A stretch of DNA of 54,661 nucleotides from an uncultured Eubacteriales bacterium. GTDB taxonomy: Bacteria > Bacillota > Clostridia > Peptostreptococcales > Anaerovoracaceae. Shown piece by piece: positions 10,595 to 53,958 of this stretch (position 1 is its first letter; each line of letters begins with the position of its first letter). The DNA is taken from assembly GCA_902763505.1 (NCBI GenBank), contig CACWSO010000015.1, positions 1 through 54,661 on the forward strand, in the 5' to 3' direction. The translations under genes were made by a program, and so were the position numbers. The notes under the pieces were generated by a model. The model searched no databases. It was not told the origin of the DNA and saw only the letters and a program-made list of their open reading frames with translations.

Positions 10595-11185
10595 ATGTAT
10601 GTAATAGCCGGCCTGGGCAATCCGGGCAGACAATATGAAAAAACACGTCATAACATGGGCTTTCTTGTGGTGGATGAATTCGCCGCAGCCCATGGTATTG
10701 ACGTACGCAGAATAAAACACAAGGCGCTGATCGGGGAAGGAAGGATCGCAGGCGAGAAGATCCTGCTTGTCAAACCGCAGACCTACATGAACCTGAGCGG
10801 AGAATCACTTCGGGAAGTGATGTCGTACTACGATGTTCCCATGGAGAATCTGATCGTTGTTTACGATGATATGGATCTGGAAACCGGGACCCTTCGCATA
10901 CGGAAGAAGGGAAGCTCAGGAAGTCACAACGGTATGAAGTCGGTGATATACCAACTCCAGTCCGACGAGTTTCCCCGCATCCGCATTGGAATAGGATCCA
11001 CCTCCGGTGACGAATGGAAGGACTATGTCACAGGACAGGTCACCGAAAAGGAAGCCGGAATTCTGGCGGAGACGATCAGAAATGCCGCAGCTGCTTTGGA
11101 ATGCATTCTCACAGATGGCATCGACATCGCCATGAACAGGTTCAATACCAGCAAAAAGCATGACGAAGAGCATGCAGAGAAGTAA
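10595..11185 (+). CDS. pth: Peptidyl-tRNA hydrolase
   Basis: Pth (196 residues) cleaves peptidyl-tRNAs that drop off ribosomes, recycling tRNA. The N-terminal signature GLGNPGRQYEKTRHNMGF carries the catalytic His; PQTYMNLSGES, VYDDMDLETGTLR and GSSGSHNGMKS are further family blocks. The ATG follows the prs stop codon directly, and mfd starts 3 nt after the pth stop, so the three are one transcription unit with coupled translation. Confidence 0.97.
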   Translation: MYVIAGLGNPGRQYEKTRHNMGFLVVDEFAAAHGIDVRRIKHKALIGEGRIAGEKILLVKPQTYMNLSGESLREVMSYYDVPMENLIVVYDDMDLETGTLRIRKKGSSGSHNGMKSVIYQLQSDEFPRIRIGIGSTSGDEWKDYVTGQVTEKEAGILAETIRNAAAALECILTDGIDIAMNRFNTSKKHDEEHAEK

Positions 11186-11188
11186 GAA

Positions 11189-35392: not shown

Positions 35393-35606
35393 TTTCAGAG
35401 ACGCGGTTATCGGGCGTCAGCCCGACTAGGTCCTCGTCGCAGACAACTGCATAAACTCGTTCATATGAAACAGAACGTCAGGCAAACTCGCAGCAAAGGC
35501 TGCTCAGACATGCCTGACGTTTTTCTGTTTCATTGATTCACTTCGTTTGCAGTTGTTTCTGCTCCTGCGGAAATGTCGGGCTGACGCCCGATAACCGCAT
35601 CTGAAA
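35393..35606. repeat. Long structured element, copy 1
   Basis: One nested hairpin of about 214 bp between convergent genes. The outer arms are a perfect 24-bp inverted repeat (35403-35426 with 35575-35598), extended by TTTCAGA/TCTGAAA. Next inside come conserved blocks shared with the copy at 53729-53932: GTCCTCGT and AACTGCATAAACT on the left (35427-35463), TTCGTTTGCAGTT and CTGCGGAAAT on the right (35538-35574). The innermost stem (ATGAAACAGA and CGTCAGGCA arms, 35465-35484 with 35511-35533) carries a T-run and can act as a terminator. No open frame. It has no resemblance that I recognise to a known RNA or insertion sequence. Confidence 0.85.
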
Positions 35607-35633
35607 GAGCCTGCGGCATTCTCTCATGCAAAT

Positions 35634-35670
35634 AGAAAAGAGCCGTTGCATTCTTGCTTGCAACGACTCT
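35634..35670 (-). terminator. Terminator of L,D-transpeptidase gene
   Basis: Read on the minus strand, AGAGTCGTTGCA (35659-35670) pairs with TGCAACGGCTCT (35639-35650), one wobble pair, followed by TTTTCT. Confidence 0.85.
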
Positions 35671-35693
35671 GTGAAGTTCATATTATGTGCGTC

Positions 35694-37106
35694 TTAATAG
35701 TGGACGATGACAACAGTTCCGACGCTTACCATCTTGTACAGTTCGCCGGCCTTTGCAGGAGGCAGGTTGACGCATCCGTGGCTGCCGCTGTAGATGTAGA
35801 TGTCGCCTCCGAAATTGGATCTCCAGCTGGCGTCATGCAGACCATAGCTGCCGCCGATAAACGGCATCCAGTAGCTGACGAAACTCTCGTAGTATGTCTT
35901 GCTTTTTTTCTTGCCGCCGCCTCTTAGAATAACGTTACGGGACATCCCGCCATTGATGCTGTAGACGCCGGTCGGTGTGCTGTGACCAGCCACTTTGCAT
36001 CCGGATACACAGTCGCATTCAAATCGTTTTTTTCCGTTTTCAAAGTAGACGACATGCTGTTTGGACAGATCAACGTCGATATAAGTGTTGCCAATTTCAA
36101 GTGTCTTGGAGTATTCGCCTTGTCCCTTTTGTGAGAAGACCGGTTCGCGGTCAACATCTTTGTGGGAGTTGATATCTTCTGCCAGCTGCTTGGCTTCGGC
36201 TTCTTCATCGACGAGCCAGCCGTAGTTACCGCCGCTGACCTTAAAGGTCTTTCCGGTCAAGGACGTGAATTCAAGCTCAGAGCCGATGACGTCATATTCG
36301 GCCTTTAATGCTTTTGCGAAATTAGCGACTTTTTCAGGATCGGCTTCGCCGGAGAAGTCATCCTTCATCAGATTTTTCAGCTCAACGGCGCTCAAAGTGA
36401 AGCTCTCTTTTCCAAGCTGATAATGAATCTTCTGGTTCAGATAGTTCTGGCAGAAGGCCTGTTCCTTGAGCAACTCCGGATCATCACTCTTGACTTCCGG
36501 CGTCGAGTAATAAGCGTTTTCATCGAATTCGAATCTTGTATTACCTATAGAAATGGCATGGAGAATATCGTTCAGATAAGCATCCTCGTCCGTCTTGTTT
36601 CCATATACTTCAGGAATGATCGGGAAGGATGGATCGTCCATATCGATATATGCATCCTGCGTTTCTGTAATGGTTCCGTGCTGTAGAAAAGCAGAATTTT
36701 TGACTCTGTCTGCGAAGTCATCGCTGCATTCAGACACATTCATCGCGATACGGGCGCTGATCGGCAGACGGAAATAGTGGCCGAGCGCAGCTGCTATGAG
36801 ATGATCCTTTTTGACGTCTTTCAGTTGCTCTTCGATATCATAGGTGCAGTCGAAATCGGTGTAATCTGCGAGAGTTTCACCGAGCTTTCCTACAACCTGC
36901 AGATGACTGGCGTTCTGAGCCTCTGTCAGAGCGGCTTCAGCCTCTTCATAGGTGAGACCGGAACAGTCCACACCATTGATGGTCATTCTGTCAGGCATGC
37001 TGTCCGCCTGATATTCATCGGAAAATGCGTATACAATTGTGGCTACGCCTGCTGCTGCAGCCAGACAAACTACAATAGCGGCTAAAATCAAAAGTGTCTT
37101 TTTCAT
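35694..37106 (-). CDS. L,D-transpeptidase with PG-binding domain
   Basis: This 470-residue protein starts with a short cytoplasmic tail and one membrane anchor (LLILAAIVVCLAAAAGVATIVYAF is the hydrophobic stretch, about residues 4-27). A long extracellular part with a peptidoglycan-binding-4-type domain follows (about 60-330), then a YkuD catalytic domain. The active-site motif is YSGSHGCVNLPP with the nucleophile Cys; YGLHDASWR supplies the usual upstream His. It should make 3-3 cross-links in the wall or attach proteins. The -10 box lies 7 nt before the ATG with no ribosome binding site, so the mRNA is probably leaderless. It is divergent from dnaE. Confidence 0.9.
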   Translation of the reverse strand: MKKTLLILAAIVVCLAAAAGVATIVYAFSDEYQADSMPDRMTINGVDCSGLTYEEAEAALTEAQNASHLQVVGKLGETLADYTDFDCTYDIEEQLKDVKKDHLIAAALGHYFRLPISARIAMNVSECSDDFADRVKNSAFLQHGTITETQDAYIDMDDPSFPIIPEVYGNKTDEDAYLNDILHAISIGNTRFEFDENAYYSTPEVKSDDPELLKEQAFCQNYLNQKIHYQLGKESFTLSAVELKNLMKDDFSGEADPEKVANFAKALKAEYDVIGSELEFTSLTGKTFKVSGGNYGWLVDEEAEAKQLAEDINSHKDVDREPVFSQKGQGEYSKTLEIGNTYIDVDLSKQHVVYFENGKKRFECDCVSGCKVAGHSTPTGVYSINGGMSRNVILRGGGKKKSKTYYESFVSYWMPFIGGSYGLHDASWRSNFGGDIYIYSGSHGCVNLPPAKAGELYKMVSVGTVVIVHY

Positions 37107-37113
37107 AATGTAT

Positions 37114-37119
37114 AGTATA
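37114..37119 (-). promoter_or_regulatory. Leaderless-type promoter of L,D-transpeptidase
   Basis: Minus-strand TATACT (37114-37119), with a weak TTTATT -35 (37137-37142) at 17 bp, ends 7 nt before the ATG at 37106. Confidence 0.55.
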
Positions 37120-37150
37120 TTTTATTTGCGCGAAAAAATAAAGCGAAATG

Positions 37151-37159
37151 TGGTATAAT
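37151..37159 (+). promoter_or_regulatory. Leaderless-type promoter of dnaE
   Basis: An extended -10, TGG plus TATAAT (37154-37159), ends 6 nt before ATG 37166. An in-frame ATG at 37148 lies upstream of this -10 and has no ribosome binding site. Confidence 0.65.
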
Positions 37160-37165
37160 CTCACC

Positions 37166-40100
37166 ATGGCTTTTACACATTTACACGTACACACTGAATA
37201 CAGCCTTCTGGACGGCGCGGCGCGCATCAAAGATGTCGTGGCACGGGCGAAGGAACTAGGTATGGACTCCCTGGCGATTACGGACCACGGGGTCATGTTT
37301 GGCGTGATCGATTTCTATCGAGCCTGTAAAGCGGAAGGCATCAAACCGATCATAGGATGTGAAGTCTACACAGCTGCGCGGACAAGATTCGACAAGGATG
37401 CAGAAAAAGACAAAGTCATGAATCATCTGATTCTCCTTGCCGAGGACAACACCGGTTACAAAAATCTGATGAAAATCGTTTCTGAAGGGTTCAGAAACGG
37501 ATTTTACTATAAGCCGAGAGTGGATAAGGAAGTCCTGCGACAGTACAGCGAAGGACTGATCGCCACATCAGCCTGTCTGGCAGGCGCTGTACAGAGAAAT
37601 CTCCTGAATGGGGATTATGAGAGCGCCAAGCGAGAAGTTCTGGAAATGTTGGACATCTTCGGAGAAGGGAACTACTTCCTAGAGCTGCAGGACCAGGGCC
37701 TTGAGGAGGAAGCGAGAATCCTGCCCGATATGAAGAGACTCCATGAGGAGACGGGCATTCCGTTTATCGCCACCAATGACGTGCACTATGTGAGACAGGA
37801 AGATGCAGAGGCGCAGGATGTACTCATGTGCATTCAGACGGCAACCACCATTGATGAAGAGAACAGAATGCGCTTTGCAAACGATCAGTTCTATCTCAAA
37901 TCGGAAGAGGAGATGAGACGGATTTTCTCCAACACCCCGGAAGCCATAGACAACACGGCGAAGATCGCGGAGCGCTGCAACGTGGAATTCACTTTCGGCG
38001 AACTTCATCTGCCGGAATTCCATGCGCCGGACGGCAAAACCAACAAAGAATATCTGAGGGAGCTCTGTCAGAAGGGACTGATGGAGAGATACCCTCAGTC
38101 GCATATCATACATCAGGAGCGTCTTGACTACGAGCTTGAGACCATAGAGAACATGGGGTACGTGGAGTACTTCCTTATCGTCTGGGATTTCATCAACTAC
38201 GCCAAGAGCCAGGGCATCATGGTCGGACCGGGCAGAGGCTCTGCCGCCGGGTCCATCGTTGCCTACACACTGCGGATCACCGACATCGATCCTGTGAAGT
38301 ATGGGCTGATTTTCGAACGTTTCCTCAATCCGGAGCGCGTCAGCATGCCGGATATCGACATCGACTTCTGCTATGAGAGACGCGGCGAAGTCATCGATTA
38401 CGTTACGGAGAAATACGGTAAGGACAACGTATCCCAGATCATCACTTTCGGTACCATGAAAGCCAAGCAGGCCGTCAGGGATGTCGGCCGCGTGCTCAAT
38501 GTCAGCTACCAGGATACGGATGCCATTGCAAAGGCAATCCCGTTCGCCCTGAAGATGACCATAGACAAAGCGCTTCAGACCAGTCCGGACTTTAAGAAGA
38601 TGTACGATGAGGATGAGACGACTCATAGGGTCGTGGATATGGCAAGAGCCATTGAAGGCATGCCTCGTCATGCATCTACCCATGCAGCGGGCGTAGTAAT
38701 CTCGAGACTGCCGTTGGATGAATACGTGCCGCTCTATCTTTCGGATAAAGGACTTTCTACCCAGTTCAACATGACAACGATCGAAGAACTGGGGCTTCTG
38801 AAGATGGACTTTCTGGGATTGAGAAACCTGACGATCATCAGGGATGCTCTGGAGATGATAAAAGAAAATCACGGTGTCGATATTGATTTTGCATCCATGG
38901 AATATGACGATCCTGCCGTATATGATACAATAGCGAGGGGTAATACACAGGGAATCTTCCAGCTGGAAAGCGGAGGTATGACCTCCTTCATGAAGAATCT
39001 CAAACCGGACTGCTTTGAGGATATCGTTGCAGGAATCGCACTCTATCGTCCGGGTCCGATGGCATCCATACCGACGTACATAGACAACAAAAAGAACCCG
39101 GGACATGTTCAGTATGTCCATGAGTCTCTTAAACCGATACTCGGCGTCACATATGGGTGTATGGTATACCAGGAACAGGTTATGCAGATCGTACGCGATC
39201 TAGGTGGATACTCATACGGACGTTCGGATCTGGTGCGTCGCGCCATGTCCAAGAAGAAGATGGACGTCATGCTCGAGGAGAAGGAGTACTTTATCAACGG
39301 CAAGACAGATGAAAACGGAAACGTCGAGATTCCTGGCTGCGTCAGGAACGGCGTACCGCGCCATGCAGCCGAAGAAATCTTCAATCAGATGATTTCCTTC
39401 GCTGAGTATGCCTTCAATAAATCCCATGCTGCCGCATACGCGGTGCTGGCTTATGAGACAAGCTATCTGAAGACACATTATCCTGTAGAGTTCATGGCGG
39501 CGCTCATGACTTCCGTAATGGGTGATACCAAGGCCATGTCCATGTACATCAGAAACTGCAGGGAGATGGGTATCGATGTTCTTCCGCCGGATGTCAATGA
39601 AAGCGGCAAGAAGTTTACCGTAGTCTATGACCCTGAGGATACAGAAAAGAAACACGGAAAGATACGTTTTGGCCTTCTGGGCGTCAAAAATATGGGTGAA
39701 GGCCCGATCGATGCCATCGTCGAAGCGAGGGAGCAGAAAGGGAAACCTTCCGACATCTTCCGGTTCATCGAGAACCTCGATATACATCGTATCAATAAGA
39801 AGGCAGTTGAGAGTCTGATCAAATCCGGAGCTATGGATTGCCTGAACAAAAACAGGGCTGCTCACTTCGGAATCTATGAATCTCTCATGGATGCGGCCCA
39901 GAGCTCTGCGAAGCACAACATCGCAGGACAGCTTTCGCTGTTCCAGACGAATGCGGAAGCGCTGGACGAGTCTGTGAGCCGCAGGCTTCCGGATGTGAAG
40001 AACTTCCCGCCGGAAGAGCTTCTGGCGCAGGAGAAGGAAGTGCTGGGTGTATACCTGACGGCGCATCCGCTGGATGAGTACGCGGATATCATCAGCCGCA

Positions 40101-40777
40101 CGGTCAATGTCACATCGGCGGATCTGGCAGAGGTGCTGGCCAACGAAGAAGAAGGTTATTCCGGAAGAATCGAGGACGGTATGAAAGCCGTCATGGCCGG
40201 TATCATAACAGGCAAGAAGAACCTGATCACAAAGAACGGAAAGATGATGTCCTTTGTGGATCTGGAGGATATGTACGGAGCCGTTGAGGTTGTCGTCTTC
40301 CCGAATGTCTATGAACTCTGCAGTTCACTCATCGATGAGGATAAAATCATCAAGGTAAGCGGAAGAATCAACTTCAAGGAAGGTGAGGTGCCAAAACTGC
40401 TGGCGGACAGCATAGCAGATATCCGACAGCCGGAGGAGCCTTCACAGCCTCAGTACGAGGAACGACCGCCGGCACCGCCTCAGCACGAAGAACGACCGCC
40501 GGCACCGGTTCAGCAGACTGCGGTTAAAGAGCCGGAGGGACTGGTGAAAATCAGACTGCCGGAAGGAGACGGCATCCACAATATAGACGGACAGAACAAG
40601 AGAAACCTGGAAGCGATCAGCGAGATCATGAGGCGGCATCCGGGAAACTATCAGGCGATCATCTACTATCCGCAGGGCGGGAGCAGAAGAACGAGTCCGG
40701 ATCTTTGGGTAACGCCTGATGATGATTTTGCAAAAGAAATTGAAACTATAGTAGGAGAGGGGAATTACAAATCATGA
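37166..40777 (+). CDS. dnaE: DNA polymerase III subunit alpha (DnaE)
   Basis: DnaE (1203 residues) is a replicative C-family DNA polymerase. PHP domain THLHVHTEYSLLDGAAR at the N-terminus, catalytic core with GPGRGSAAGSIVAY and the Asp triad in MPDIDIDFCYERR, then HhH and OB domains. It lacks the internal exonuclease of PolC, so it is the DnaE1/DnaE3 type. A Pro-rich linker near residue 1100 holds two copies of a 10-residue unit (EERPPAP core) before a C-terminal domain. I choose ATG 37166 (leaderless) over ATG 37148. Its stop overlaps the pfkA ATG by 4 bases, the common dnaE-pfkA arrangement. Confidence 0.96.
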   Translation: MAFTHLHVHTEYSLLDGAARIKDVVARAKELGMDSLAITDHGVMFGVIDFYRACKAEGIKPIIGCEVYTAARTRFDKDAEKDKVMNHLILLAEDNTGYKNLMKIVSEGFRNGFYYKPRVDKEVLRQYSEGLIATSACLAGAVQRNLLNGDYESAKREVLEMLDIFGEGNYFLELQDQGLEEEARILPDMKRLHEETGIPFIATNDVHYVRQEDAEAQDVLMCIQTATTIDEENRMRFANDQFYLKSEEEMRRIFSNTPEAIDNTAKIAERCNVEFTFGELHLPEFHAPDGKTNKEYLRELCQKGLMERYPQSHIIHQERLDYELETIENMGYVEYFLIVWDFINYAKSQGIMVGPGRGSAAGSIVAYTLRITDIDPVKYGLIFERFLNPERVSMPDIDIDFCYERRGEVIDYVTEKYGKDNVSQIITFGTMKAKQAVRDVGRVLNVSYQDTDAIAKAIPFALKMTIDKALQTSPDFKKMYDEDETTHRVVDMARAIEGMPRHASTHAAGVVISRLPLDEYVPLYLSDKGLSTQFNMTTIEELGLLKMDFLGLRNLTIIRDALEMIKENHGVDIDFASMEYDDPAVYDTIARGNTQGIFQLESGGMTSFMKNLKPDCFEDIVAGIALYRPGPMASIPTYIDNKKNPGHVQYVHESLKPILGVTYGCMVYQEQVMQIVRDLGGYSYGRSDLVRRAMSKKKMDVMLEEKEYFINGKTDENGNVEIPGCVRNGVPRHAAEEIFNQMISFAEYAFNKSHAAAYAVLAYETSYLKTHYPVEFMAALMTSVMGDTKAMSMYIRNCREMGIDVLPPDVNESGKKFTVVYDPEDTEKKHGKIRFGLLGVKNMGEGPIDAIVEAREQKGKPSDIFRFIENLDIHRINKKAVESLIKSGAMDCLNKNRAAHFGIYESLMDAAQSSAKHNIAGQLSLFQTNAEALDESVSRRLPDVKNFPPEELLAQEKEVLGVYLTAHPLDEYADIISRTVNVTSADLAEVLANEEEGYSGRIEDGMKAVMAGIITGKKNLITKNGKMMSFVDLEDMYGAVEVVVFPNVYELCSSLIDEDKIIKVSGRINFKEGEVPKLLADSIADIRQPEEPSQPQYEERPPAPPQHEERPPAPVQQTAVKEPEGLVKIRLPEGDGIHNIDGQNKRNLEAISEIMRRHPGNYQAIIYYPQGGSRRTSPDLWVTPDDDFAKEIETIVGEGNYKS
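40451..40510. repeat. 30-bp in-frame tandem repeat in dnaE
   Basis: Two near-identical 30-bp units (40451-40480 and 40481-40510) encode QYEERPPAPP and QHEERPPAPV in the linker of DnaE. They differ at only a few bases, so the duplication is recent or kept uniform. Confidence 0.75.
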
Positions 40778-41742
40778 AAAAGATCGGAATACTGACAAGC
40801 GGCGGAGATGCGCCGGGAATGAACGCCGCAATCAGAGCTGCAGTAAGGTGCGGCATCGACAGAGGAATGGAGGTCTACGGGATTCAGAGAGGGTATGAAG
40901 GCCTTCTGGATGGGGATATCAAAATGATGGAGTGGCATTCTGTCGGCGATATTCTCCAAAGGGGCGGAACCATTCTCAGAACAGCGCGCAGTGAACGGTT
41001 TATGGAGGACAAATGGGTAGAACACGCCGCAAAGATGCTCAACACCTTCGGGATAGAAGGGTTGATCGTCGTCGGCGGGGATGGATCTTTCAGAGGCGGT
41101 GTTGAACTGTCCAAAAAAGGAGTTCCTGTCATGGGTGTTCCGGGAACCATAGACAATGATCTGGCATATACAGATTACACGATCGGGTTTGATACTGCAG
41201 TGAACACGATTCTCGGTCTGATTACGAACATCAGAGACACATCATCCTCTCACCAGAGAACAACCATCATAGAAGTGATGGGAAGACGGTGCGGAGATCT
41301 GGCGCTCTATTCAGGCCTGGGCGGCGGTGCCGATGTCATACTCGTTCCTGAAGTCGATATTGACATCAACGAAGTATGTGTCAGAGTGCTGCAGGGACAG
41401 TCATCAGGAAAGGCCCACAGTCTGATTGTCAAGGCTGAAGGTTTCAGAGTGGATACCGCGGAGCTCGCAAAGATTCTGGAAGAAATGACCGGAAGAGAGG
41501 CACGTGCCGTTGTTCCAGGATATATTCAGAGAGGCGGCGGTCCTTCACAGGCAGACAGAACGTTGGCTACACTGACGGCCGCAAAGGCAGTCGAACTGCT
41601 GTATGACGATTCTGACAGCAAGGCGATCGGTGTTTCCAATGGAAAGATCATAGCCATGGATCTTGAGGAGTCCCTGAATGTAAAGGCGGAGTTCAAAAGA
41701 GACCTGTATGACATTGCCAATTTGCTGGGCAAAGGCAAATAA
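40774..41742 (+). CDS. pfkA: 6-phosphofructokinase
   Basis: PfkA (322 residues) phosphorylates fructose 6-phosphate, the committed step of glycolysis. GILTSGGDAPGMNAAIR (ATP site), VVGGDGSFRGG with the Gly pattern of ATP-dependent enzymes, catalytic GVPGTIDNDL and the substrate block EVMGRRCGDLAL are intact; PPi-type substitutions are not seen. It overlaps dnaE by 4 bases (ATGA) with AGGAGAGGGG upstream, so glycolysis and replication genes share a transcript, as in many Firmicutes. Confidence 0.95.
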   Translation: MKKIGILTSGGDAPGMNAAIRAAVRCGIDRGMEVYGIQRGYEGLLDGDIKMMEWHSVGDILQRGGTILRTARSERFMEDKWVEHAAKMLNTFGIEGLIVVGGDGSFRGGVELSKKGVPVMGVPGTIDNDLAYTDYTIGFDTAVNTILGLITNIRDTSSSHQRTTIIEVMGRRCGDLALYSGLGGGADVILVPEVDIDINEVCVRVLQGQSSGKAHSLIVKAEGFRVDTAELAKILEEMTGREARAVVPGYIQRGGGPSQADRTLATLTAAKAVELLYDDSDSKAIGVSNGKIIAMDLEESLNVKAEFKRDLYDIANLLGKGK

Positions 41743-41783
41743 TTATGATAAAATATCCTTTACTTAAGTAAGGGGAAACGATT

Positions 41784-41927
41784 ATGATACAGAAATTGAA
41801 CCGTTTATTGAGAACACTCTTCATCGTCTGCGGAGCATTATTCCTGCTTTTGGACCTGCTGCCGAAAAAAATCGTGCAGAGCAACAAGGAAGGCTTCGAC
41901 AACGAAGAGTTCGACGATATCTGGTAA
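41784..41927 (+). CDS. Small single-helix membrane protein
   Basis: This 47-residue protein starts MIQKLNRLLRTLFIVCGALF, with one hydrophobic helix (about residues 10-26) and an acidic tail ending FDDIW. ATG 41784 has AAGGGG. An extended -10 (TGA plus TAAAAT, 41749-41754) lies after pfkA and could start a transcript covering this gene and the DUF308 gene 23 bp downstream. Family unknown. Confidence 0.6.
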   Translation: MIQKLNRLLRTLFIVCGALFLLLDLLPKKIVQSNKEGFDNEEFDDIW

Positions 41928-41950
41928 TCACAGAATAGAGGAGTTATTGA

Positions 41951-42682
41951 ATGAGAGTTATTACGCTAGCCGGCGGCTTTCTTATGGTTGCCACCGGTGC
42001 TTTCTGCTTTATAAATCCGGGACAGACTTTTATGACAATGGCATTTGTCATCGGCAGTGTCATGGTCATCAACGGGGTAATCCATGCTTTGGGATTTCTC
42101 CTTGCGAGAGGTAGTTTCGGCATAGGAGACAACAACGGGTGGATTCTGATCGACGCCATATTGACGTTGCTTTTGGGTATTCTGATACTCTGCAATCAGT
42201 TGACGGTCGACATGGCGATTCCGATGATCTTCGGCATGTGGGTACTTGTTTCGGGTCTGCTCCGTTTCGAGGCTGCGACCAGAATCAACAGACAGAAGAA
42301 ACCAGGCAATTTCAAAGCTGCTTTTATCACAGGCGTCGTTACCATTCTGGTCGGCCTGATTGGGTTCATCAATCCGTTTGTTACATACGTATCGATCATT
42401 ATTACGCTTGGTATCTTCCTTGTCGTGCAGGGGATCAACTCCATTGAACTTGGCATCAACATGCCGCATAAAGTCAAAGAAGATGCTAAGGTATTTGTTC
42501 CTTCCCGTACAGCAGTCAAAATTGAGGACGAGGATGAGACGGAAGAGGCCGTTGCTGAAAGAATCCAGGCGCAGAAGGAATTTGAGCAGAAAAAAGAATT
42601 CACGATGGCCCTGGGCGAAGGCAATTTCGGCCTTACGAAGGAAGAAGTGGAGAAAGCAGTACAGGAGCTTAAGAAAGAATGA
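41951..42682 (+). CDS. DUF308/HdeD-like membrane protein
   Basis: This 243-residue protein has six membrane helices in three repeated two-helix units (for example LAGGFLMVATGAFCFINPGQ, IDAILTLLLGILILCNQ, FITGVVTILVGLIGFINPF), the HdeD/DUF308 pattern. A cytosolic tail rich in Glu/Lys follows, ending LTKEEVEKAVQELKKE. HdeD helps acid resistance in E. coli, but the role in Firmicutes is not known. ATG 41951 has GAGGAG. It is followed at 18 bp by the FAD enzyme pair. Confidence 0.8.
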   Translation: MRVITLAGGFLMVATGAFCFINPGQTFMTMAFVIGSVMVINGVIHALGFLLARGSFGIGDNNGWILIDAILTLLLGILILCNQLTVDMAIPMIFGMWVLVSGLLRFEAATRINRQKKPGNFKAAFITGVVTILVGLIGFINPFVTYVSIIITLGIFLVVQGINSIELGINMPHKVKEDAKVFVPSRTAVKIEDEDETEEAVAERIQAQKEFEQKKEFTMALGEGNFGLTKEEVEKAVQELKKE

Positions 42683-42700
42683 TCAGGAGCTTGAATCGGC

Positions 42701-45539: not shown

Positions 45540-45553
45540 TTGTCTGATAAGTG

Positions 45554-45582
45554 TGGAAAACGGCGGCGAAGATTCGTATAAT
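45554..45582 (+). promoter_or_regulatory. Leaderless-type promoter of phoH
   Basis: TGGAAA (45554-45559), 17-bp spacer, TATAAT (45577-45582), then 6 nt to ATG 45589. No Shine-Dalgarno sequence. Confidence 0.65.
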
Positions 45583-45588
45583 AATGAT

Positions 45589-46653
45589 ATGGAAAGAAAG
45601 ATAGATTTAAACATGGAAAGAGCAGCGATTGAAACCATCCCGCTCGATGACAGCGTAGACAGACGGGAACTTTTTGGTGGGATGGATCAGAACCTTCGAA
45701 ACATAGAGGATCTGCTCGGCGTAACAATTATACAGCGCAGCGACGGCCTGCTCATCAAAGACGGGCAGGGCGCAGCAGATGGCGCACCGGCAGGTCATGA
45801 AGCTGCCGAAAGAGTGCAACGGGCAGCTGCGATACTGAAGGAAATGGTTGAGACAGTAAGAAAAGGAGAAGTATTGGATCAGCAGAAAGCAGGATATATC
45901 ACAGATCTGGCGGAGAACGGCATCTCCTACAGCAGACAGGCAGAAAGCAGCCATCTGGACAAGGAGATCATCTGTTTCACACATGACGGCAAGCCGCTCA
46001 GACCGAAGACCATCGGACAGAAGGAATACGTTAAGACCATCAGAAACAAAGACATCGTATTCGGCATCGGACCGGCAGGAACAGGCAAGACCTATATTGC
46101 CGTTGCGATGGCGGTTCAGGCGTTCAAGAATAAGGATGTGCAGAAAATCATATTGGCCAGGCCTGCGGTGGAAGCAGGAGAGAGGCTGGGTTTTTTGCCT
46201 GGAGATCTTCAGGAGAAGGTCGATCCGTACCTCAGACCACTTTATGATGCGCTTTATGATGTGCTGGGCAGAGAGAGTGCGCTCAGATTGAAGGAAAAGG
46301 AAATCATTGAGGTCGTTCCGCTAGCCTACATGAGGGGAAGAACACTGGACAATTCCTTTATCATCCTGGATGAAGCACAGAACACGACACCGGAACAGAT
46401 GAAGATGTTCCTGACCAGAATGGGATTCGGATCAAAGGTCGTCGTAACCGGAGACATCACCCAGATTGACCTTCCGAGAGGGAAGAAATCAGGACTCATT
46501 GAAGCACGTAAAGTTCTGAGAGACGTTGAAGATATCGGATTCTGTTATCTGAAGGAAGTGGACGTCGTAAGACATCAGCTCGTCAAGAAAGTCATCAGTG
46601 CATATGACAAGTATTACAGAGCTCATCCGCCTGTTGAAGAAGAGGAGAAGTAA
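45589..46653 (+). CDS. PhoH family ATPase
   Basis: This 354-residue PhoH-like protein has Walker A FGIGPAGTGKTYIAV (about residue 160), Walker B NSFIILDEAQNTT and VVTGDITQIDLP. It has an N-terminal KH-like part. PhoH is an ATPase, probably an RNA-linked factor, and its gene commonly sits before ybeY. I start at ATG 45589, directly after a -10 box; the open frame extends further upstream but into the previous gene and without a start signal. The stop overlaps the ybeY ATG (TAATG). The HD-domain (YqfF) gene often between them is absent. Confidence 0.9.
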   Translation: MERKIDLNMERAAIETIPLDDSVDRRELFGGMDQNLRNIEDLLGVTIIQRSDGLLIKDGQGAADGAPAGHEAAERVQRAAAILKEMVETVRKGEVLDQQKAGYITDLAENGISYSRQAESSHLDKEIICFTHDGKPLRPKTIGQKEYVKTIRNKDIVFGIGPAGTGKTYIAVAMAVQAFKNKDVQKIILARPAVEAGERLGFLPGDLQEKVDPYLRPLYDALYDVLGRESALRLKEKEIIEVVPLAYMRGRTLDNSFIILDEAQNTTPEQMKMFLTRMGFGSKVVVTGDITQIDLPRGKKSGLIEARKVLRDVEDIGFCYLKEVDVVRHQLVKKVISAYDKYYRAHPPVEEEEK

Positions 46654-47150
46654 TGGAAATCATAGTGAACAACGAGGATGCAGTGAATGAGCAGATGATG
46701 GATAAACTGAGAGAGGCAGCTTCCGCATGTGTTGGAATGGATGTGGAAATAAGCCTTTCTTTTGTTTCTCTTGATGAGATTCATGAGCTCAATCGTGATT
46801 ACAGGGGTGTGGACAGACCGACGGATGTGCTGTCTTTTCCGATGTTCGAGAGCATGGAAGAACTGGAGGAGGCCTGTGCGAATATGGATGAAGAGGGACA
46901 GAATGTGCCGCTCGGCGATGTCGTTATCTGCATGGACAAAGTAATTGAGCAGGCGGAGCAATTCGGGCATTCCCGCGAAAGGGAGACGGTCTATCTGTTC
47001 ACTCACAGCATTCTTCATCTGCTTGGATATGATCACGAAACAGAAGAAGATAAAGCAGAGATGAGGCAGAGGGAAGAAGAGATTATGGAAGAGCTGGGTC
47101 TTGGAAGAGAAGAGACACAGAGCAACAGAGAGGAGACAGAAGTACAGTGA
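46653..47150 (+). CDS. ybeY: rRNA maturation RNase YbeY
   Basis: YbeY (165 residues) is a zinc endoribonuclease for 16S rRNA 3' end maturation and ribosome quality control. The zinc-binding HSILHLLGYDHE (His-x3-His-x5-His) and DRPTDVLSFPM are the family marks. Its Glu-rich tail (EEIMEELGLG...) is a little longer than usual. ATG overlaps the phoH stop by one base; its stop overlaps the era GTG. dgkA and cdd, often placed before era, are missing here. Confidence 0.95.
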   Translation: MEIIVNNEDAVNEQMMDKLREAASACVGMDVEISLSFVSLDEIHELNRDYRGVDRPTDVLSFPMFESMEELEEACANMDEEGQNVPLGDVVICMDKVIEQAEQFGHSRERETVYLFTHSILHLLGYDHETEEDKAEMRQREEEIMEELGLGREETQSNREETEVQ

Positions 47151-48046
47151 AATCAGGATTCGTCGGAATAATCGGAAGACCCAATGTAGGCAAATCAACT
47201 CTGCTCAACGCAATATTGGGCGAGAAGATTGCCATTACCACTGAAAAACCACAGACGACAAGAAACATCATCCGTGGCATTTACACCCATTATGGGGAGG
47301 AAGAAGGCGAGGATGATGTACAGATCGTCTTTATCGATACACCTGGCATCCACAAGCCGCGCAACAAACTGGGCGAGTACATGACGGAGTCAGCTATTGC
47401 GACCTTTGGCGAAGTTGATGCAATCATTTTTATTGTCGATGACGCTCTGAGCAAAGGTCCCGGCGACAAGTACATTCTCCAGCTCCTGAAGGAGACGGAT
47501 ACGCCGAAGATACTGGTCATCAACAAAATCGACAGAATCGGGCCGGATGCTTTTGCAGAAATCTACAGAGAGTATGAAGAGACGGGAGTGTTCGATACGA
47601 TTCTCGGCACAGCGGCTATAGAGGGAACGAATGTCGATGATGTCATCAAGGCAGCGGCCGGTTATATGGAAGAAGGACCGATGTTCTTTCCTGACGACAT
47701 CGTGACAGAGAATCCTGCTAGATTCATCGTCAGTGAGATCATCAGAGAGAAGATTCTGCTGTACCTGCAGGATGAAGTACCGCATGGGGTGGCCGTTGAG
47801 ATCGAACAGTATGAAGAAGAGGATGATCTGACGAGAATCGGTGCTGTGATCTACTGCGAACGCAAATCCCATAAAGGAATGATCATTGGCAAAGGCGGCA
47901 GAAAGCTCAAAGGCATAGGCAAGAGCGCCCGTCAGGAGATCGAGGCCTTGCTCGGAACCAAGGTGTTCCTGGAGACATGGGTCAAAGTCAGGGAAAACTG
48001 GAGAGACAGCGATATTGCGCTGACGAATTTCGGATACAGAGATTGA
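47147..48046 (+). CDS. era: GTPase Era
   Basis: Era (299 residues) binds the 3' end of 16S rRNA and aids 30S assembly. G1 GRPNVGKSTL, G2 TTRNIIRGI, G3 DTPGIHKPR, G4 NKIDRIG, and a C-terminal KH domain with ERKSHKGMIIGKGGRKLKG are intact. The GTG start (47147) overlaps the ybeY stop (GTGA), with GAGGAGA upstream, so translation is coupled. recO follows. Confidence 0.97.
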   Translation: MKSGFVGIIGRPNVGKSTLLNAILGEKIAITTEKPQTTRNIIRGIYTHYGEEEGEDDVQIVFIDTPGIHKPRNKLGEYMTESAIATFGEVDAIIFIVDDALSKGPGDKYILQLLKETDTPKILVINKIDRIGPDAFAEIYREYEETGVFDTILGTAAIEGTNVDDVIKAAAGYMEEGPMFFPDDIVTENPARFIVSEIIREKILLYLQDEVPHGVAVEIEQYEEEDDLTRIGAVIYCERKSHKGMIIGKGGRKLKGIGKSARQEIEALLGTKVFLETWVKVRENWRDSDIALTNFGYRD

Positions 48047-48067
48047 TTGAGGAACCTGCAGAGCAAG

Positions 48068-48826
48068 ATGAAAGCAGATACAGAGGGGATTGTCCTCAGA
48101 GAGACAAAAACTTCATACAACAGGCGCATGATACACCTGTTCACCCGGGAGTACGGCAAGATCAGCGCCGGAACCAGTCTGGGGGAGCGGGGCAAAAGCA
48201 AGAGCGCCCTGGCACTCCAGCATTTTACCTTCGGGCGCTATGCCCTTCACAGGGGGAGAGACAGCTACAATATCGATGCGGCAGAAGTCATCAAGAGCTT
48301 CTATGGCATCGGTGAGAACGTGGATAAGTACTTCAACGGAGCGTATGTGCTGGAGTTCACCTCCAAGGTGCTCCATCCGGAGGTGCCAGCGCCTGCCGTA
48401 TTCGATATGCTCATCGACTTTTTTGAGATGCTCGAACGGCGTGAAAAGGGGTTCGGGACTTTGGTTCTGGCTTACCAGACAAGGCTCTTCAGGTTTATGG
48501 GAATCGCCCCTGTGCTTGACAAATGCGCTGTCTGCGGGAGCCCTGCCGGAAACTGGTTCAGCATTGAGGACGGCGGTCTGATTTGCGATGAATGCCGCAG
48601 CAGAATCATCGCGGATGAAGGGGAGAATTCGGCTCGCAGTGCATTGATTTACCCTGTGAGTTTTGATATAATCAATGCATTAAAATATTTTAATAATCAT
48701 TCATTGAAACAGCTTGAAAATATTGCGCTAAGTGAGGATACAGGCAAAGCGCTGCAGAAGATTGTAAGAGAGTACGCAGCGTATCATCTGGATGCCTCGA
48801 ATATAAAGAGTGAAACCATGATTTAA
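48068..48826 (+). CDS. recO: DNA repair protein RecO
   Basis: RecO (252 residues) loads RecA with RecR in RecF-pathway recombination. An N-terminal OB fold (about 1-80, DTEGIVLRETKTSYNRRMIHLFT) is followed by a helical domain and a zinc knuckle CAVCGSP ... GGLICDECR. ATG 48068 is preferred to TTG 48047; a GAGG lies about 14 nt before it, so initiation is probably aided by coupling to era, whose stop is 22 nt upstream. Confidence 0.92.
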   Translation: MKADTEGIVLRETKTSYNRRMIHLFTREYGKISAGTSLGERGKSKSALALQHFTFGRYALHRGRDSYNIDAAEVIKSFYGIGENVDKYFNGAYVLEFTSKVLHPEVPAPAVFDMLIDFFEMLERREKGFGTLVLAYQTRLFRFMGIAPVLDKCAVCGSPAGNWFSIEDGGLICDECRSRIIADEGENSARSALIYPVSFDIINALKYFNNHSLKQLENIALSEDTGKALQKIVREYAAYHLDASNIKSETMI

Positions 48827-48844
48827 AAAGGGAGGATTACAACA

Positions 48845-49639
48845 ATGGAAATCACACTGGAAAAGATTGAATTAGTAAAAGACAGAACAGGCGTTACATA
48901 TGCCGAAGCAAAAAAAGCACTGGAAGATGCGGATGGCAGTGTTGTAGATGCTATCATCGCAATTGAGGAAACGGTTAATTCAGGCGACAAGAAGAGAGCC
49001 TTCGGTGAAAAGGGAGAAGCGCTTTTCGCAAGTCTCAAGAGCCTCATCAAGAAGGGTAATGTTGCAAGAATCCAGGTCAAGAAAGACGGCGACGGCATCC
49101 TCAACGTTCCTGTTAACGCAGGAATCCTGGGAATCTGCATCGCACCGCTGGCATCCGTAGTTGCAATCGTTGCTGCTTTTGGATTCAAATGCACAATTGA
49201 AGTAGTAAAGACTGACGGAACGATCATTGATGTAAGCGACGCTGTTTCCGATAAGGTTTCACAGGCTGCAGAATTCGGAAGCGATACATTTGAATCACTC
49301 AAGGGAAAAGGCAAGGACTTCTACGACAAGGCGAAGGACAGTGACATCTATGATAAGGCAAAGGATGCTGCAGGCGGTCTGAAGGACAAGGCTGAGGATA
49401 TCTACGATAAGGCGAAGGAAACCGATTTCTACGATAAGGCGAAGGACGCTGCCGGCGGTCTGAAGGACAAGGCTGAAGATCTGAAAGACAGAGCGGAAGA
49501 CTTCAGAGATGAGTTCAAAGAAAGAGTTGCCAAAGAAGCAGAAGAAGCTGAGGAAGCAGTAGAAGAAGCTGCAGAAGAAGCTGTAGAAGTTAAAGCAGAG
49601 TTTGAAGCAGAAGTAGAAGAAAAGGGCGAAGAAGAATAA
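48845..49639 (+). CDS. UBA/DUF4342 protein with LEA-like repeats
   Basis: The product is 264 residues. Residues 1-45 ([24 protein letters not shown]) form a UBA/TS-N-like domain. A DUF4342-type domain (about 55-125) contains a hydrophobic segment [20 protein letters not shown] that may touch the membrane. From about 155 on, amphipathic Lys/Asp/Ala-rich repeats ([17 protein letters not shown], two copies in an 81-bp duplication) resemble late-embryogenesis-abundant or apolipoprotein helices, ending in a Glu/Ala-rich acidic tail. ATG has GGGAGG. It lies between recO and glyS and its stop overlaps the glyS ATG. Function unknown; a desiccation or membrane-stress role is a guess. Confidence 0.75.
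49331..49492. repeat. 81-bp tandem repeat encoding LEA-like motif
   Basis: Two 81-bp units (49331-49411 and 49412-49492) encode 27 residues each around [15 protein letters not shown]. The first part is nearly identical at the DNA level; the second unit diverges at its end. Confidence 0.75.
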
Positions 49640-51042
49640 TGACAACAGAAGTTACAATGGAGAAAATCACCGCCCTTGCAAAGAACAGAGGGTTCATCTT
49701 TCCGGGTTCTGAAATATACGGCGGACTGGCAAATACTTGGGACTACGGTCCTCTTGGCGTTGAACTGAAGAACAACATCAAGGATGCATGGCGTCAGAAG
49801 TTCGTTCGTGAATCAGAATACAATGTGGGACTTGATGCAGCAATCCTGATGAATCCCGAGACATGGGTCGCGTCAGGACATGTAGGTGGATTCGCAGATC
49901 CTCTGATCGATTGCAAAGCCTGCAAGGCCCGTTTTCGTGCAGACAAGCTGATCGAAGACCATCTTCATGCACAGGGACAGATGGATGTACAGGTAGATGG
50001 CTGGTCAAACGAAAAGCTGGAGCAGTTCATCGCTGAAAACGGCGTCAAGTGTCCGGAATGCGGCAAATCTGATTTCACAGGGATTCGTCAGTTCAACCTG
50101 ATGTTCAAGACGTTCCAGGGAGTTACAGAAGATTCAAAGGCAGAGATTTATCTCAGACCTGAGACTGCTCAGGGCATATTTGTTAACTTCAAAAATGTTC
50201 AGAGAACAGCGAGAAAGAAGATTCCGTTCGGAATCGCACAGGTAGGAAAATCTTTCAGAAACGAAATCACGCCGGGAAACTTCATCTTCAGAACGAGAGA
50301 GTTCGAGCAGATGGAACTGGAATTTTTCTGCAAGCCAGGGACAGAACTTGACTGGTTTGCATACTGGAAGGACTACTGTGCTGATTTTCTGAGGAATCTG
50401 GGCATCAAGGAAGAGCATATGAGACTGAGGGATCATGATCCTGAGGAACTGTCTCACTACAGCAACGCCACAACAGATATCGAATTCCTGTTCCCATTCG
50501 GATGGGGCGAGCTCTGGGGCGTTGCTTCGAGAACAGATTTCGACCTGATGGCGCATCAGAACCATTCAGGTCAGGACATGCTGTACCTTGATCCGGAGAC
50601 CAATGAGAAGTACGTGCCTTACTGTATCGAACCATCCGTAGGTGTTGAGAGAATGCTCCTGGCATTCCTGGTCGATGCCTATGATGAAGAGATTCTGACA
50701 GATGACAAAGGTAAGGAGGACGTGCGTAAAGTATTACGGCTTCACCCGGCTCTGGCACCGTTCAAAGCGGCAGTGCTGCCACTCAGCAAAAAGCTTGGAG
50801 ACGTTGCAGAGCCTGTTTACCATGAACTGAAGAAATACTTCATGGTCGACTACGATACAGCAGGTTCTATCGGTAAGAGATACAGAAGGGAAGACGAGAT
50901 CGGTACTCCATTCTGCATTTGTGTTGACTTTGATACAGCTGAAGATGGATGTGTTACCATCAGAGACCGTGACACAATGGAACAGGTAAGAATTCCTGTC
51001 GGCGAGGTCAGGACGTATATCGAGGAGAGACTCGAGTTTTAA
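49639..51042 (+). CDS. glyS: Glycyl-tRNA synthetase, dimeric type
   Basis: GlyS (467 residues) charges tRNA-Gly and is the alpha2 class II enzyme found in many Gram-positives, archaea and eukaryotes. Class II motifs: motif 1 around [18 protein letters not shown], motif 2 [21 protein letters not shown], motif 3 [13 protein letters not shown], and a C-terminal anticodon-binding domain with the [13 protein letters not shown] block. A zinc-like set CKACKARF and CPECGKSD lies about residues 93-135. ATG 49639 overlaps the upstream stop (TAATG). Confidence 0.96.
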
Positions 51043-51091
51043 TATACTGTCAATTAATTGTTTTAGTTAAATATGAGGAGAGTAAAGAAAA

Positions 51092-53713
51092 ATGGGAAAG
51101 TTTGTTTATTCATTCAATGAAGGCTCCAAGGACATGAGAGACCTTCTGGGTGGTAAGGGTGCCAATCTGGCAGAGATGACAAAAATCGGACTTCCGGTAC
51201 CGTTTGGCTTCACTGTAACAACAGAGGCATGCACAAGGTATTATCAGGAAGGACAGACAATCGGTCAGGATATCGTAGATGACATCTACGTTAAGCTGGC
51301 TGATCTGGAAGCTGTAACAGAGAAGAAGTTCGGCGATGCATCAAATCCGCTTCTCGTTTCAGTTCGTTCCGGAGCAAAGATCTCAATGCCGGGCATGATG
51401 GATACCATTCTGAATCTGGGACTTAATGACGAGACAGTTGAAGGACTTTCAGCGCTTACTGGAAATCCTCGTTTCGCATATGACTCCTATAGAAGATTCA
51501 TCCAGATGTTCGGTGACGTTGTAATGGGCATCAGCAAGAGCAAATTTGATGAAATCTTCGACGGACAGAAGGACAAGAAGGGCGTCATGTTTGACGTTGA
51601 TCTGGACACAGATGACCTGAAAGAAATCATCGTTGGCTACAAGGCAATGTACAAGGAAGAAATCGGCAACGACTTCCCACAGGAACCGAAAGAACAGCTG
51701 ATGGAAGCAATCAAGGCAGTATTCAGATCATGGAATACTGAAAGAGCAATTCTTTACAGACAGCTGAACGAGATCCCTGATGACATTGGAACTGCTGTGA
51801 ACGTTCAGTCTATGGTATTTGGTAACATGGGCGACACTTCAGGTACAGGCGTAGCGTTCACTAGATCTCCTGTAAATGGCGAAAAGGCTATCTTCGGTGA
51901 GTTCCTCGTTAACGCACAGGGCGAAGACGTAGTAGCCGGAATCAGAACACCGCAGCCGATTGCTGAGATGGCAGAGGCATTCCCTGAAGTATACGGAGAC
52001 TTCGTAAGAATTGCCGACGTACTGGAAAATCACTACAAAGATATGCAGGACATGGAGTTTACCGTAGAGAGAGGCAAGCTCTTCATGCTGCAGACCAGAA
52101 ATGGTAAGAGAACTGCTCCTTCCGCTGTCAAGATTGCAGTAGATATGGTTGGCGAAGGCCTGATCACAAAGGAAGAAGCAATCATGAGAATCGAGCCTGG
52201 TCAGATCGGTCAGCTGCTTCACCCGATGTTCGATGCAAATGAACTGGAAGCGGCAGAGAAACTGACAAAGGGACTTCCTGCTTCACCGGGCGCTGCCTGC
52301 GGACAGATCTATTTCAACGCAGCTGATGCTGAGGCAGCTGTTGCTGAAGGAAAGAAGGTTATTCTGGTAAGATTGGAAACTTCTCCGGAAGACCTGGCAG
52401 GTATGGTAGCTGCTGAAGGTATTCTGACGGCAAGAGGCGGTATGACATCCCACGCTGCAGTAGTTGCCAGAGGCATGGGCAAGTGCTGCGTATCAGGATG
52501 TTCAGAGATCAAGGTTGACGAAGCTTCTAAGTTCCTGGGAATCGGTGAGTATGAGTTCAAGGAAGGCGACTTCATCTCACTGAACGGAACGACAGGCGAC
52601 GTTCTGAAGGGCGAAGTCAAGACGGTTCCACCTGAACTGTCAGGCGATTTCGGAACAATCATGAACTGGGCTGATGACATCAGAACACTCAAGGTAAGAA
52701 CAAATGCTGACAATCCTAGAGATGCGAAGCAGGCTGTAGAGTTCGGAGCACAGGGTATTGGCCTCTGCAGAACTGAGCACATGTTCTTCGAAGAAGAGAG
52801 AATCCCTGCAATCAGAAGAATGATCATGGCTGATACTGAAGAAGAGAGAAGAGAAGCACTGAGCTTCCTGCTCCCTTATCAGAAGGGCGACTTCAAGGGT
52901 ATCTATGAGGCAATGGAAGAGAGACCTGTTACGATCAGACTCCTCGACCCACCTCTCCATGAGTTCATTCCGCATACTGATGAAGAACTGCATGAACTGG
53001 CAGACCTCATCGGCAAGCCATATGAGAAGCTGGCCAAGAAGGCAGAAGAACTCCATGAGTTCAACCCAATGCTGGGACACAGAGGATGCAGACTTGCTGT
53101 AACATATCCTGAAATCGCTGAGATGCAGGCTGAAGCAATCATCACAGCCGCTATCGAAGTAAGAAAAGAAAAAGGTTATGATATCGTCCCTGAAATCATG
53201 GTTCCGCTCGTAGGAAGCAAGACAGAGCTGACCAATGTTAAGAAGACTGTTGTTGATACAATTACAAGAGTCTTCGAGAGAGAAGGCGTAGAATTCCCTT
53301 ATCTGGTAGGTACAATGATTGAGATTCCGAGAGCTGCTCTGACAGCTGACGAGATTGCAGAAGAAGCAGAATTCTTCTCATTCGGAACCAACGACCTGAC
53401 ACAGATGGGATTCGGATTCTCCAGAGACGATACAGGCAACATCATCAAGGAATACAAGGAAAAGGGTATCTTCGAAGACGATCCGTTCCAGAGCCTTGAT
53501 CAGACAGGCATCGGCAAACTGGTCAAAATGGCTGTAGAGCTTGGTAAGAAGACCAGACCTGACATCCACCTTGGTATCTGCGGCGAGCACGGCGGCGATC
53601 CTAAGTCCATCGACTTCTGCCACAGAGTTGGTCTGCAGTACGTATCATGCTCACCGTTCAGAGTTCCTATCGCAAGACTGTCAGCAGCACAGGCAGCGAT
53701 TCGCAACAAGTAA
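51092..53713 (+). CDS. ppdK: Pyruvate, phosphate dikinase
   Basis: PpdK (873 residues) interconverts pyruvate, ATP and phosphate with PEP, AMP and PPi, giving PPi-linked glycolysis or gluconeogenesis. N-terminal nucleotide domain (LLGGKGANLAEM, VRSGAKISMPGMMDTILNLG), central phospho-His GGMTSHAAVVARGMG, and the C-terminal TIM barrel with GTNDLTQM and GICGEHGG (catalytic Cys) are intact. ATG has GAGGAG; TATACT (51043-51048) is a possible -10. The regulatory kinase/phosphorylase (PpsR type), often adjacent in Firmicutes, is absent. The downstream repeat element acts as terminator. Confidence 0.97.
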   Translation: MGKFVYSFNEGSKDMRDLLGGKGANLAEMTKIGLPVPFGFTVTTEACTRYYQEGQTIGQDIVDDIYVKLADLEAVTEKKFGDASNPLLVSVRSGAKISMPGMMDTILNLGLNDETVEGLSALTGNPRFAYDSYRRFIQMFGDVVMGISKSKFDEIFDGQKDKKGVMFDVDLDTDDLKEIIVGYKAMYKEEIGNDFPQEPKEQLMEAIKAVFRSWNTERAILYRQLNEIPDDIGTAVNVQSMVFGNMGDTSGTGVAFTRSPVNGEKAIFGEFLVNAQGEDVVAGIRTPQPIAEMAEAFPEVYGDFVRIADVLENHYKDMQDMEFTVERGKLFMLQTRNGKRTAPSAVKIAVDMVGEGLITKEEAIMRIEPGQIGQLLHPMFDANELEAAEKLTKGLPASPGAACGQIYFNAADAEAAVAEGKKVILVRLETSPEDLAGMVAAEGILTARGGMTSHAAVVARGMGKCCVSGCSEIKVDEASKFLGIGEYEFKEGDFISLNGTTGDVLKGEVKTVPPELSGDFGTIMNWADDIRTLKVRTNADNPRDAKQAVEFGAQGIGLCRTEHMFFEEERIPAIRRMIMADTEEERREALSFLLPYQKGDFKGIYEAMEERPVTIRLLDPPLHEFIPHTDEELHELADLIGKPYEKLAKKAEELHEFNPMLGHRGCRLAVTYPEIAEMQAEAIITAAIEVRKEKGYDIVPEIMVPLVGSKTELTNVKKTVVDTITRVFEREGVEFPYLVGTMIEIPRAALTADEIAEEAEFFSFGTNDLTQMGFGFSRDDTGNIIKEYKEKGIFEDDPFQSLDQTGIGKLVKMAVELGKKTRPDIHLGICGEHGGDPKSIDFCHRVGLQYVSCSPFRVPIARLSAAQAAIRNK

Positions 53714-53728
53714 TTGAAATAGTGAAAT

Positions 53729-53932
53729 GCGGGACTTACGGCACTGTCCGGAACGATTTCCGCAGTGGACGTAATAACTGCAAACGAAACGAGCAAAGAA
53801 AATAGTAAAACCCCGGGGTTGTCCGAGCGGCTATAGCCGTGAGTTCTCCCCGGGGTTCTATTTTTTTGTGAGTAAGTTTATACAGTTATACGTTCACGAG
53901 GACTAAGTGCCGGACAGTGCCGTAAGCCCCGC
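53729..53932. repeat. Long structured element, copy 2
   Basis: A 204-bp nested hairpin, inverted in orientation relative to copy 1 at 35393. Outer arms are a 23-bp inverted repeat (53729-53751 with 53910-53932; the single mismatch becomes G-U if the minus strand is RNA) with a sequence unlike copy 1. On the minus strand the conserved blocks reappear in the same order: GTCCTCGT and AACTGTATAAACT (within 53868-53906), TTCGTTTGCAGTT and CTGCGGAAAT (within 53756-53792). The inner stem (CCCCGGGG arms with T-run on both sides, about 53811-53867) serves as a terminator for ppdK. It lies between convergent genes, like copy 1. Confidence 0.85.
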
Positions 53933-53958
53933 ATGCACTTGTGTTAATTAATGGGTGG

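Follow-up and report, generated by a model that had tools for sequence, protein, structure and literature searches.

The bcr1 repeats and their like are dispersed sequences of about 150 nt that are able to fold and are not known outside the Bacillus cereus group. The attC sites are folded single strands with extrahelical bases, whose structure is kept while the sequence drifts. Here we describe a dispersed family of palindromic elements of roughly 200-230 bp, widespread in Clostridia-type bacteria. Two copies lie in a 54,661-nt stretch of DNA from an uncultured Eubacteriales bacterium (GenBank assembly GCA_902763505.1, contig CACWSO010000015.1), hereafter the window. Folded DNA accounts for the element better than RNA does. 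We read it as a large, non-autonomous element resembling the repetitive extragenic palindromes (REPs) and REPINs, selected as a folded DNA strand, carrying a terminator-like hairpin and settling behind stop codons; we give this reading a probability of about 0.58.

As portrayed in the main text of PMC3733652, REP/REPIN and GTAG/CGTC-tagged repeats are single stem-loops of 20-40 bp with the tag at one end. REPs lie behind genes, convergent or codirectional, often as inverted pairs and with heterogeneous stems, and CGTC-type palindromic repeats without a dedicated transposase are also described. The words Firmicutes and Clostridium are absent from that main text. MRSC-65-2, as characterised in passages of PMC11109978, is a long, strongly covarying stem that occurs in multiple copies in diverse phyla; it is proposed to be selfish and may act as DNA. 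A variant of attC is mentioned in a passage of PMC8632094.

In behaviour, the new element is REP-like as far as these accounts go, being a dispersed intergenic palindrome at gene 3′ ends, rarely between divergent genes, with inverted pairs and heterogeneous stems. It departs from REPs in its size of about 200 bp (a 144-nt core plus arms), its nested build with conserved internal loops, and the position of CGTC, which lies inside the left motif and not at the end. It also lacks their association with REP-associated tyrosine transposases (RAYTs), the Y1 transposase domain PF01797 occurring in just 8 of 41 genomes of the genus sample. MRSC-65-2 is distinguished in that source by its conserved repeat UYCCGG. 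Of the 120 cores here, 18 contain TYCCGG or CCGGRA, and the repeat does not characterise the present family, a comparison by description and not by alignment. The likeness to bcr1, that of a dispersed repeat able to fold, is likewise drawn by description and not by sequence. With attC the element shares extrahelical bases and a structure kept under sequence drift, but its conserved and variable parts are placed otherwise.

Architecture of the element

Searches relied on two covariance models, R1, made from 13 aligned cores of three genomes (the host G000, G197 and G198), and R2, built from the copies of the genus sample. The original prediction, a reading of the window that preceded this analysis, had placed two elements in opposite orientation with four short blocks in a common order, and all of this is borne out. 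Both copies are flanked by convergent open reading frames (ORFs), also as predicted. Their parts are as follows.

35403..35426, plus strand: copy 1, P1, the left outer arm (24 nt), which pairs with the right arm (arm test, 117 copies)
35430..35573, plus strand: copy 1, conserved core, GTCCTCGTCGC ... GCTCCTGCGGAAA, 144 nt; R1 168.3 bits, E 6.4e-38 (the copy is in R1); R2 E 4.7e-36
35439..35450, plus strand: copy 1, left strand of P2
35465..35484, plus strand: copy 1, left strand of P3, terminator-like together with its partner strand and T-run
35490..35503, plus strand: copy 1, apical hairpin P4, flanked by the conserved AACTC and CTCAGACA
35511..35533, plus strand: copy 1, right strand of P3 including the T-run GTTTTTCTG
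35549..35562, plus strand: copy 1, right strand of P2, with extrahelical bases
35575..35598, plus strand: copy 1, right outer arm P1′
53727..53751, minus strand: copy 2, outer arm on the 3′ side of the element
53757..53903, minus strand: copy 2, conserved core, 147 nt; R1 121.3 bits, E 2.7e-26 (the copy is in R1); R2 E 2.2e-26
53910..53934, minus strand: copy 2, outer arm on the 5′ side of the element

From the outside inwards, the element consists of P1 arms that differ by locus, a TCC/GGA pairing with the motifs GTCCTCGTCGC / GCTCCTGCGGA, and P2, whose extrahelical bases lie on the 3′ side. These are followed by a loop of the ACTCRTTCAYA / TTCAYTTCG type, P3 with its T-run, a loop AACTC / CTCARACA, and P4. 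The inner hairpin thereby holds a third conserved block pair, AACTC ... CTCRRACA, which the original prediction overlooked. Outer arms of 24 and 23 bp had been predicted; the former figure stands for copy 1, while the arms of copy 2 pair by eye over 25 positions with one mismatch. The predicted replacement of GCAGA/TCTGC by ACGT/ACGT in the middle stem is visible by eye. Compared with shuffled sequences, the two window cores fold with z-scores of -6.8 and -5.9. P3, a G+C-rich hairpin followed by a GTTTT run behind stop codons, has the layout of an intrinsic terminator, and terminator activity is predicted from this.

Conserved loops and covarying stems extend across the family, in agreement with the original prediction. 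Across 120 copies, 4,566 of 4,819 stem pair cells are Watson-Crick (94.7%). In alignment A4 (81 distinct rows), two-sided changes occur in 41 of 41 pairs (823 cells), standard pairs fill 96.7% of cells, and the covariation score reaches 0.641, whereas shuffling gives 0.197 on average and sliding no more than 0.096. Both the pairing and the covariation figures are raised by the fact that the alignments had been fitted to the structure. The Watson-Crick share in the 120 copies, together with the covariation in A4, excludes a chance origin of the structure. In alignment A6, which comprises 100 sources with E <=1e-8 and leaves out some matching loci (including L036, L037, L045, L048, L051, L054, L070-L074, L092 and L093), a single letter occupies at least 90% of copies in 23 of 61 unpaired columns and in 12 of 82 paired ones. 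The outer arms, testable in 117 copies (the flanks of the other 3 are too short), align over a median of 36 positions and are 84% Watson-Crick; in 93% of copies their score exceeds the 95th percentile obtained by mixing arms from different copies.

Pairing seems to be maintained at the DNA level

G-U pairs are stable in RNA and A-C pairs are not, so that RNA stems show G-U well above A-C. This signature is missing from the element. The core stems of the 120 copies contain 54 G-T and 71 A-C cells among 4,819, and the outer arms 121 and 201 among 4,121. By comparison, 45 ordinary terminators outside the elements at the same loci, searched for with both mismatch types allowed equally, contain 20 G-T and 4 A-C (Fisher p=0.0003 against the cores; p-values here are guides, since related copies are not independent). 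P2 alone shows 24 G-T and 18 A-C. Because G-T does not exceed A-C in the core stems taken together, unlike in the ordinary terminators nearby, pairing seems to be maintained at the DNA level. The original prediction had left open a structured RNA or a folded single-strand DNA; the DNA half of that alternative fits better, and the RNA half is disfavoured.

Distribution of the family

The repeat had been taken for a two-copy family, and an exact-pattern search of 197 family genomes indeed matched the host only. Covariance-model searching, which the original prediction had proposed, overturned this view and recovered copies in the host and in relatives. R1 finds six in the host genome. Apart from the two in the window, a facing pair lies on contig 1, and contigs 16 and 19 hold a single copy each. 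The first relatives had come from a pattern scan, which picked up two assemblies, a Bacillota one from goat jejunum and a Clostridiales one; further copies in these two and in the host emerged when copy 1 served as BLAST query. R1 matches occur in 27 of 41 genomes of the genus sample, with up to 31 copies per genome; 25 of these 27 genomes are not in the R1 training set, G211 being the same assembly as G197 to judge by coordinates. In samples that overlap with this one and with each other, copies occur in 36 of 257 genomes of the family (15 of 92 genera) and in 46 of 393 genomes of the order, nine of them beyond the family.

As the original prediction had suspected, no known family corresponds to the element. 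No Rfam family matched the window at the gathering threshold, nor any element at a weak threshold, where copy 1 gave merely a chance-level DUF2800 score (E 4.3). The core matched no phage or plasmid record, and the literature, including searches with sequence strings but with supplements outside the search, yielded no published description of the family.

Genomic context and paired copies

Among the 97 copies for which both flanking ORFs, called mechanically, were resolved (23 of the 120 had one side that was not), 60 lie between convergent and 32 between codirectional ORFs (19 sense, 13 antisense), and 5 between divergent ones; a previous count over a smaller set of copies came out at 41, 21, 11 and 1. 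In 91 copies with an upstream ORF on the same strand, the core begins a median of 55 nt after the stop codon. Most copies are single. Where neighbours lie within 1.5 kb, 16 of 17 pairs face each other, or 12 of 13 loci once orthologues are merged by hand (p=6e-7), although some of these copies were fetched because a pair had already been seen in the genus-sample matches. Among the genus-sample matches listed, 12 of 13 pairs face each other and none points outward.

Presence and absence at orthologous loci

Presence and absence at the same locus, another of the checks proposed at the outset, is found among sister genomes: five loci lack the element in relatives, and four of these have an ordinary terminator there. 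Gene names (PPDK, argH, hypA, ACT and others) are our own reading of the sequence and are putative. Downstream of PPDK, the locus of copy 2, the matched flanks of G205, G216 and one G217 contig are separated by about 72-89 nt that include an ordinary terminator; in G211, G202 and a second G217 contig the spacer is longer and holds other hairpins. At locus L026, the element is present in G198, G202, G211 and G229, and a terminator stands instead in G000, G216 and G205. At L222, G127 has the element and G162 a terminator. By eye, the element may have taken the place of a terminator at PPDK, L026 and L222. L018 differs in that the element in G198 is followed by an ordinary terminator that has been kept; at this locus G211 shows a terminator and G000 one that is split by an insertion.

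At hypA/ACT, the element occurs in G198 and G211. G000 reads through without core or arms, G216, G202 and G205 also lack the element, and no ordinary terminator was seen at the empty site in G000. The near-repeat CTGTAG/CTGCAG at this sharp empty site is as compatible with loss of a palindrome through slippage as with a target-site duplication. The idea that the core inserts into the loops of pre-existing terminators, which would then form the outer arms, was set aside on account of this empty site without arms; among the simple hairpins of the window, no more than two come close in strength, and their being 15-17 bp long and A/T-flanked likewise speaks against arms as pre-existing terminators.

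Some further structures were seen at these loci. At the PPDK site of host copy 2, L163 (G211), L166 (G217) and L168 (G202) hold a nested terminator-like hairpin composed of a stem, an AGATTTC-type loop, an inner GTGC/GCAC-type stem and TGATTTCT, the stem sequence varying between genomes. The insertion in the host L018 terminator hairpin (L201, G000:C2, about 10337-11750) amounts to about 1.4 kb of extra DNA, which we read as insertion-sequence-like. The stems of the ordinary terminator at L018 also differ on both sides between G198 and both G000 and G211, so that fast paired turnover of stems may be general in the lineage.

Possible core exchange and an inversion

L019 resembles copy 1 in its right arm (94%) and left arm (80%), yet its core is merely 72% identical, and a right arm shared without a close core suggests core exchange between copies. 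L213 and L220 have cores 96% identical and arms about half identical. One inversion is apparent, since related cores lie in opposite orientation at the same locus in G162 and G127 (L079 and L221/L266), with flanks 89-90% identical. In 19 orthologue pairs, which share members, we counted 25 two-sided Watson-Crick changes (17 of them from three pairs), 2 other two-sided changes and 21 one-sided changes. Strand-switching across the arms could cause the flips and many of the two-sided changes, and gene conversion between copies some of the latter.

Candidate mobilising enzymes

REPs are mobilised by Y1 transposases. Six of the eight genus-sample genomes with PF01797 carry copies of the element and two do not; the match in the host comprises two pieces with a stop. 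Copies are present in 21 of the 33 genomes without this domain, including G224 (31 copies, 98% complete), G162 and G127. Mobilisation by a Y1 or RAYT enzyme, considered as a candidate, is therefore not supported.

Alternative explanations

Selection might act on a folded transcript, possibly from both strands, the element being a structured RNA such as a 3′ untranslated region element, a small RNA or a bidirectional terminator. The strong covariation, the location behind stop codons and between convergent genes, P3 with its T-run and the ordinary terminators of relatives at four of five compared loci would all suit such an RNA, which we regard as unlikely but still worth weighing. What disfavours it is the lack of a G-U excess over A-C, which holds also for the 19 copies in sense between codirectional ORFs, with 9 G-T and 8 A-C against 11 and 1 in one-way terminators (p=0.04, small numbers). 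P3 itself, the terminator-like hairpin, has 4 G-T and 9 A-C, and Rfam gave no match at either threshold. Two-way transcription would suppress both G-U and A-C, so RNA remains a rival for the convergent copies.

The remaining alternatives concern DNA. An ordinary miniature inverted-repeat transposable element of an insertion sequence, with the arms as terminal inverted repeats, would be dispersed, palindromic and present or absent at a given locus, as observed; its transposase would need constant ends, whereas the arms vary by locus, and two aligned junctions show no consistent target duplication, which makes this origin improbable. The original prediction had pointed to attC or the ends of IS200/IS605, and a recombination site of a known enzyme class would account for folded DNA with extrahelical bases behind genes and for conserved loops combined with free stems. 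As families, however, these examples do not fit, as the Y1 transposase is missing from the 21 copy-carrying genomes mentioned above, some of them copy-rich, and the outer arms are variable where attC has conserved core sites. The loci read hold no cassette array, although no search for an integrase or tyrosine recombinase was made, and we consider a site of this kind distinctly improbable. Least credible is a passive palindrome without a function of its own, its symmetry kept by strand-switching during replication: the 25 two-sided Watson-Crick changes against 21 one-sided ones and the single inversion are what it would leave behind, but strand-switching alone would erase the asymmetric loop motifs, which are conserved (23 of 61 unpaired columns).

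Distant relatives and viral contigs

Matches found elsewhere in the order, outside the family, have in common the tip AACTCGC...GCTCAAACA or a close variant, and R2 gave E 6.5e-7 or better in all ten stretches fetched from them. The tip motif also occurs in at least 80 viral contig stretches, and some of its contexts there are nested hairpins. The 79 that were analysed form 20 flank clusters, eight of which have z below -2.5 against simple shuffles, six of these with stems closing around the motif; four further clusters (z -1.8 to -2.4) show stems around it by eye. L291 and 38 similar viral stretches carry the 19-nt tip motif in one repeated context, whose predicted fold leaves the motif unenclosed; finding the motif is therefore no proof of membership by itself.

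Applied to 26 viral sources, R2 matches 11 at E <=0.05 and none of the other 15 at E <=1, including L289, L290 and L309, whose sequence style we take to be Neisseria-like. These E-values are biased because the sources were chosen on the motif, except for two extra copies in L303. This 10.9-kb viral contig, with ORFs that we read as terminase-, portal- and capsid-like, has R2 matches at 1084-1222, 7025-7166 and 7855-7996, all on the minus strand (E 5e-6 to 2e-4), two of the three not chosen by motif. A short ORF at 10280-10579 of L303 resembles by eye the ORF over 7025-7166, which hints at a fourth element.

Fifteen such motif-bearing stretches matched no Rfam family at the gathering threshold, and under the weak threshold likewise none reached the gathering score. 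For a distant relative, nothing matched among the phage records, and the plasmid records held a single weak match of 55 nt. The L303 and L324 elements had no match in either set. A strict pattern found nothing in viral contigs; a looser one gave L202 and L203, neither with a model match. The Clostridia-type elements may tentatively be placed as one branch within a superfamily that spans phyla, made up of mobile folded-DNA hairpins that share the tip motif and would be spread by an enzyme reading the folded strand, with arms remade or exchanged locally and core and arms evolving separately, although we doubt this more than we believe it.

Discussion

In the reading we favour, the selected form would be the folded DNA strand, a single nested hairpin of P1 arms, P2, P3 and P4, and a protein would read the conserved asymmetric internal loops. 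The element would spread by transposition and settle just behind stop codons, sometimes as facing pairs. P3 and the T-run would probably act as a terminator at the insertion site.

Several observations weigh against this reading. The arms of copy 1 and L005 are mostly different despite cores about 95% identical, which plain copy-and-paste does not explain, and in about 7% of copies the arms match one another no better than mixed arms do. The one enzyme class searched for, PF01797, yielded no mobiliser, being absent from the 21 copy-carrying genomes, nor was there a clear target-site duplication at the two junctions aligned (hypA/ACT and the strongly diverged L222). Take-over of terminators is not general, because L018 keeps its terminator and the empty hypA/ACT site has none. 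Finally, 16 of the 120 copies overlap a mechanical ORF.

If our reading is true, bacteria carry a large class of structured-DNA repeats that RNA-motif pipelines would file as RNA. The count of G-T against A-C mismatches provides a simple test, needing the sequence only, which is of help in distinguishing folded DNA from folded RNA. Among sister genomes, the family can also be traced one locus at a time as regards its presence or absence, its inversion, changes in its arms and the replacement of terminators, and the question that it poses is what reads the loops.

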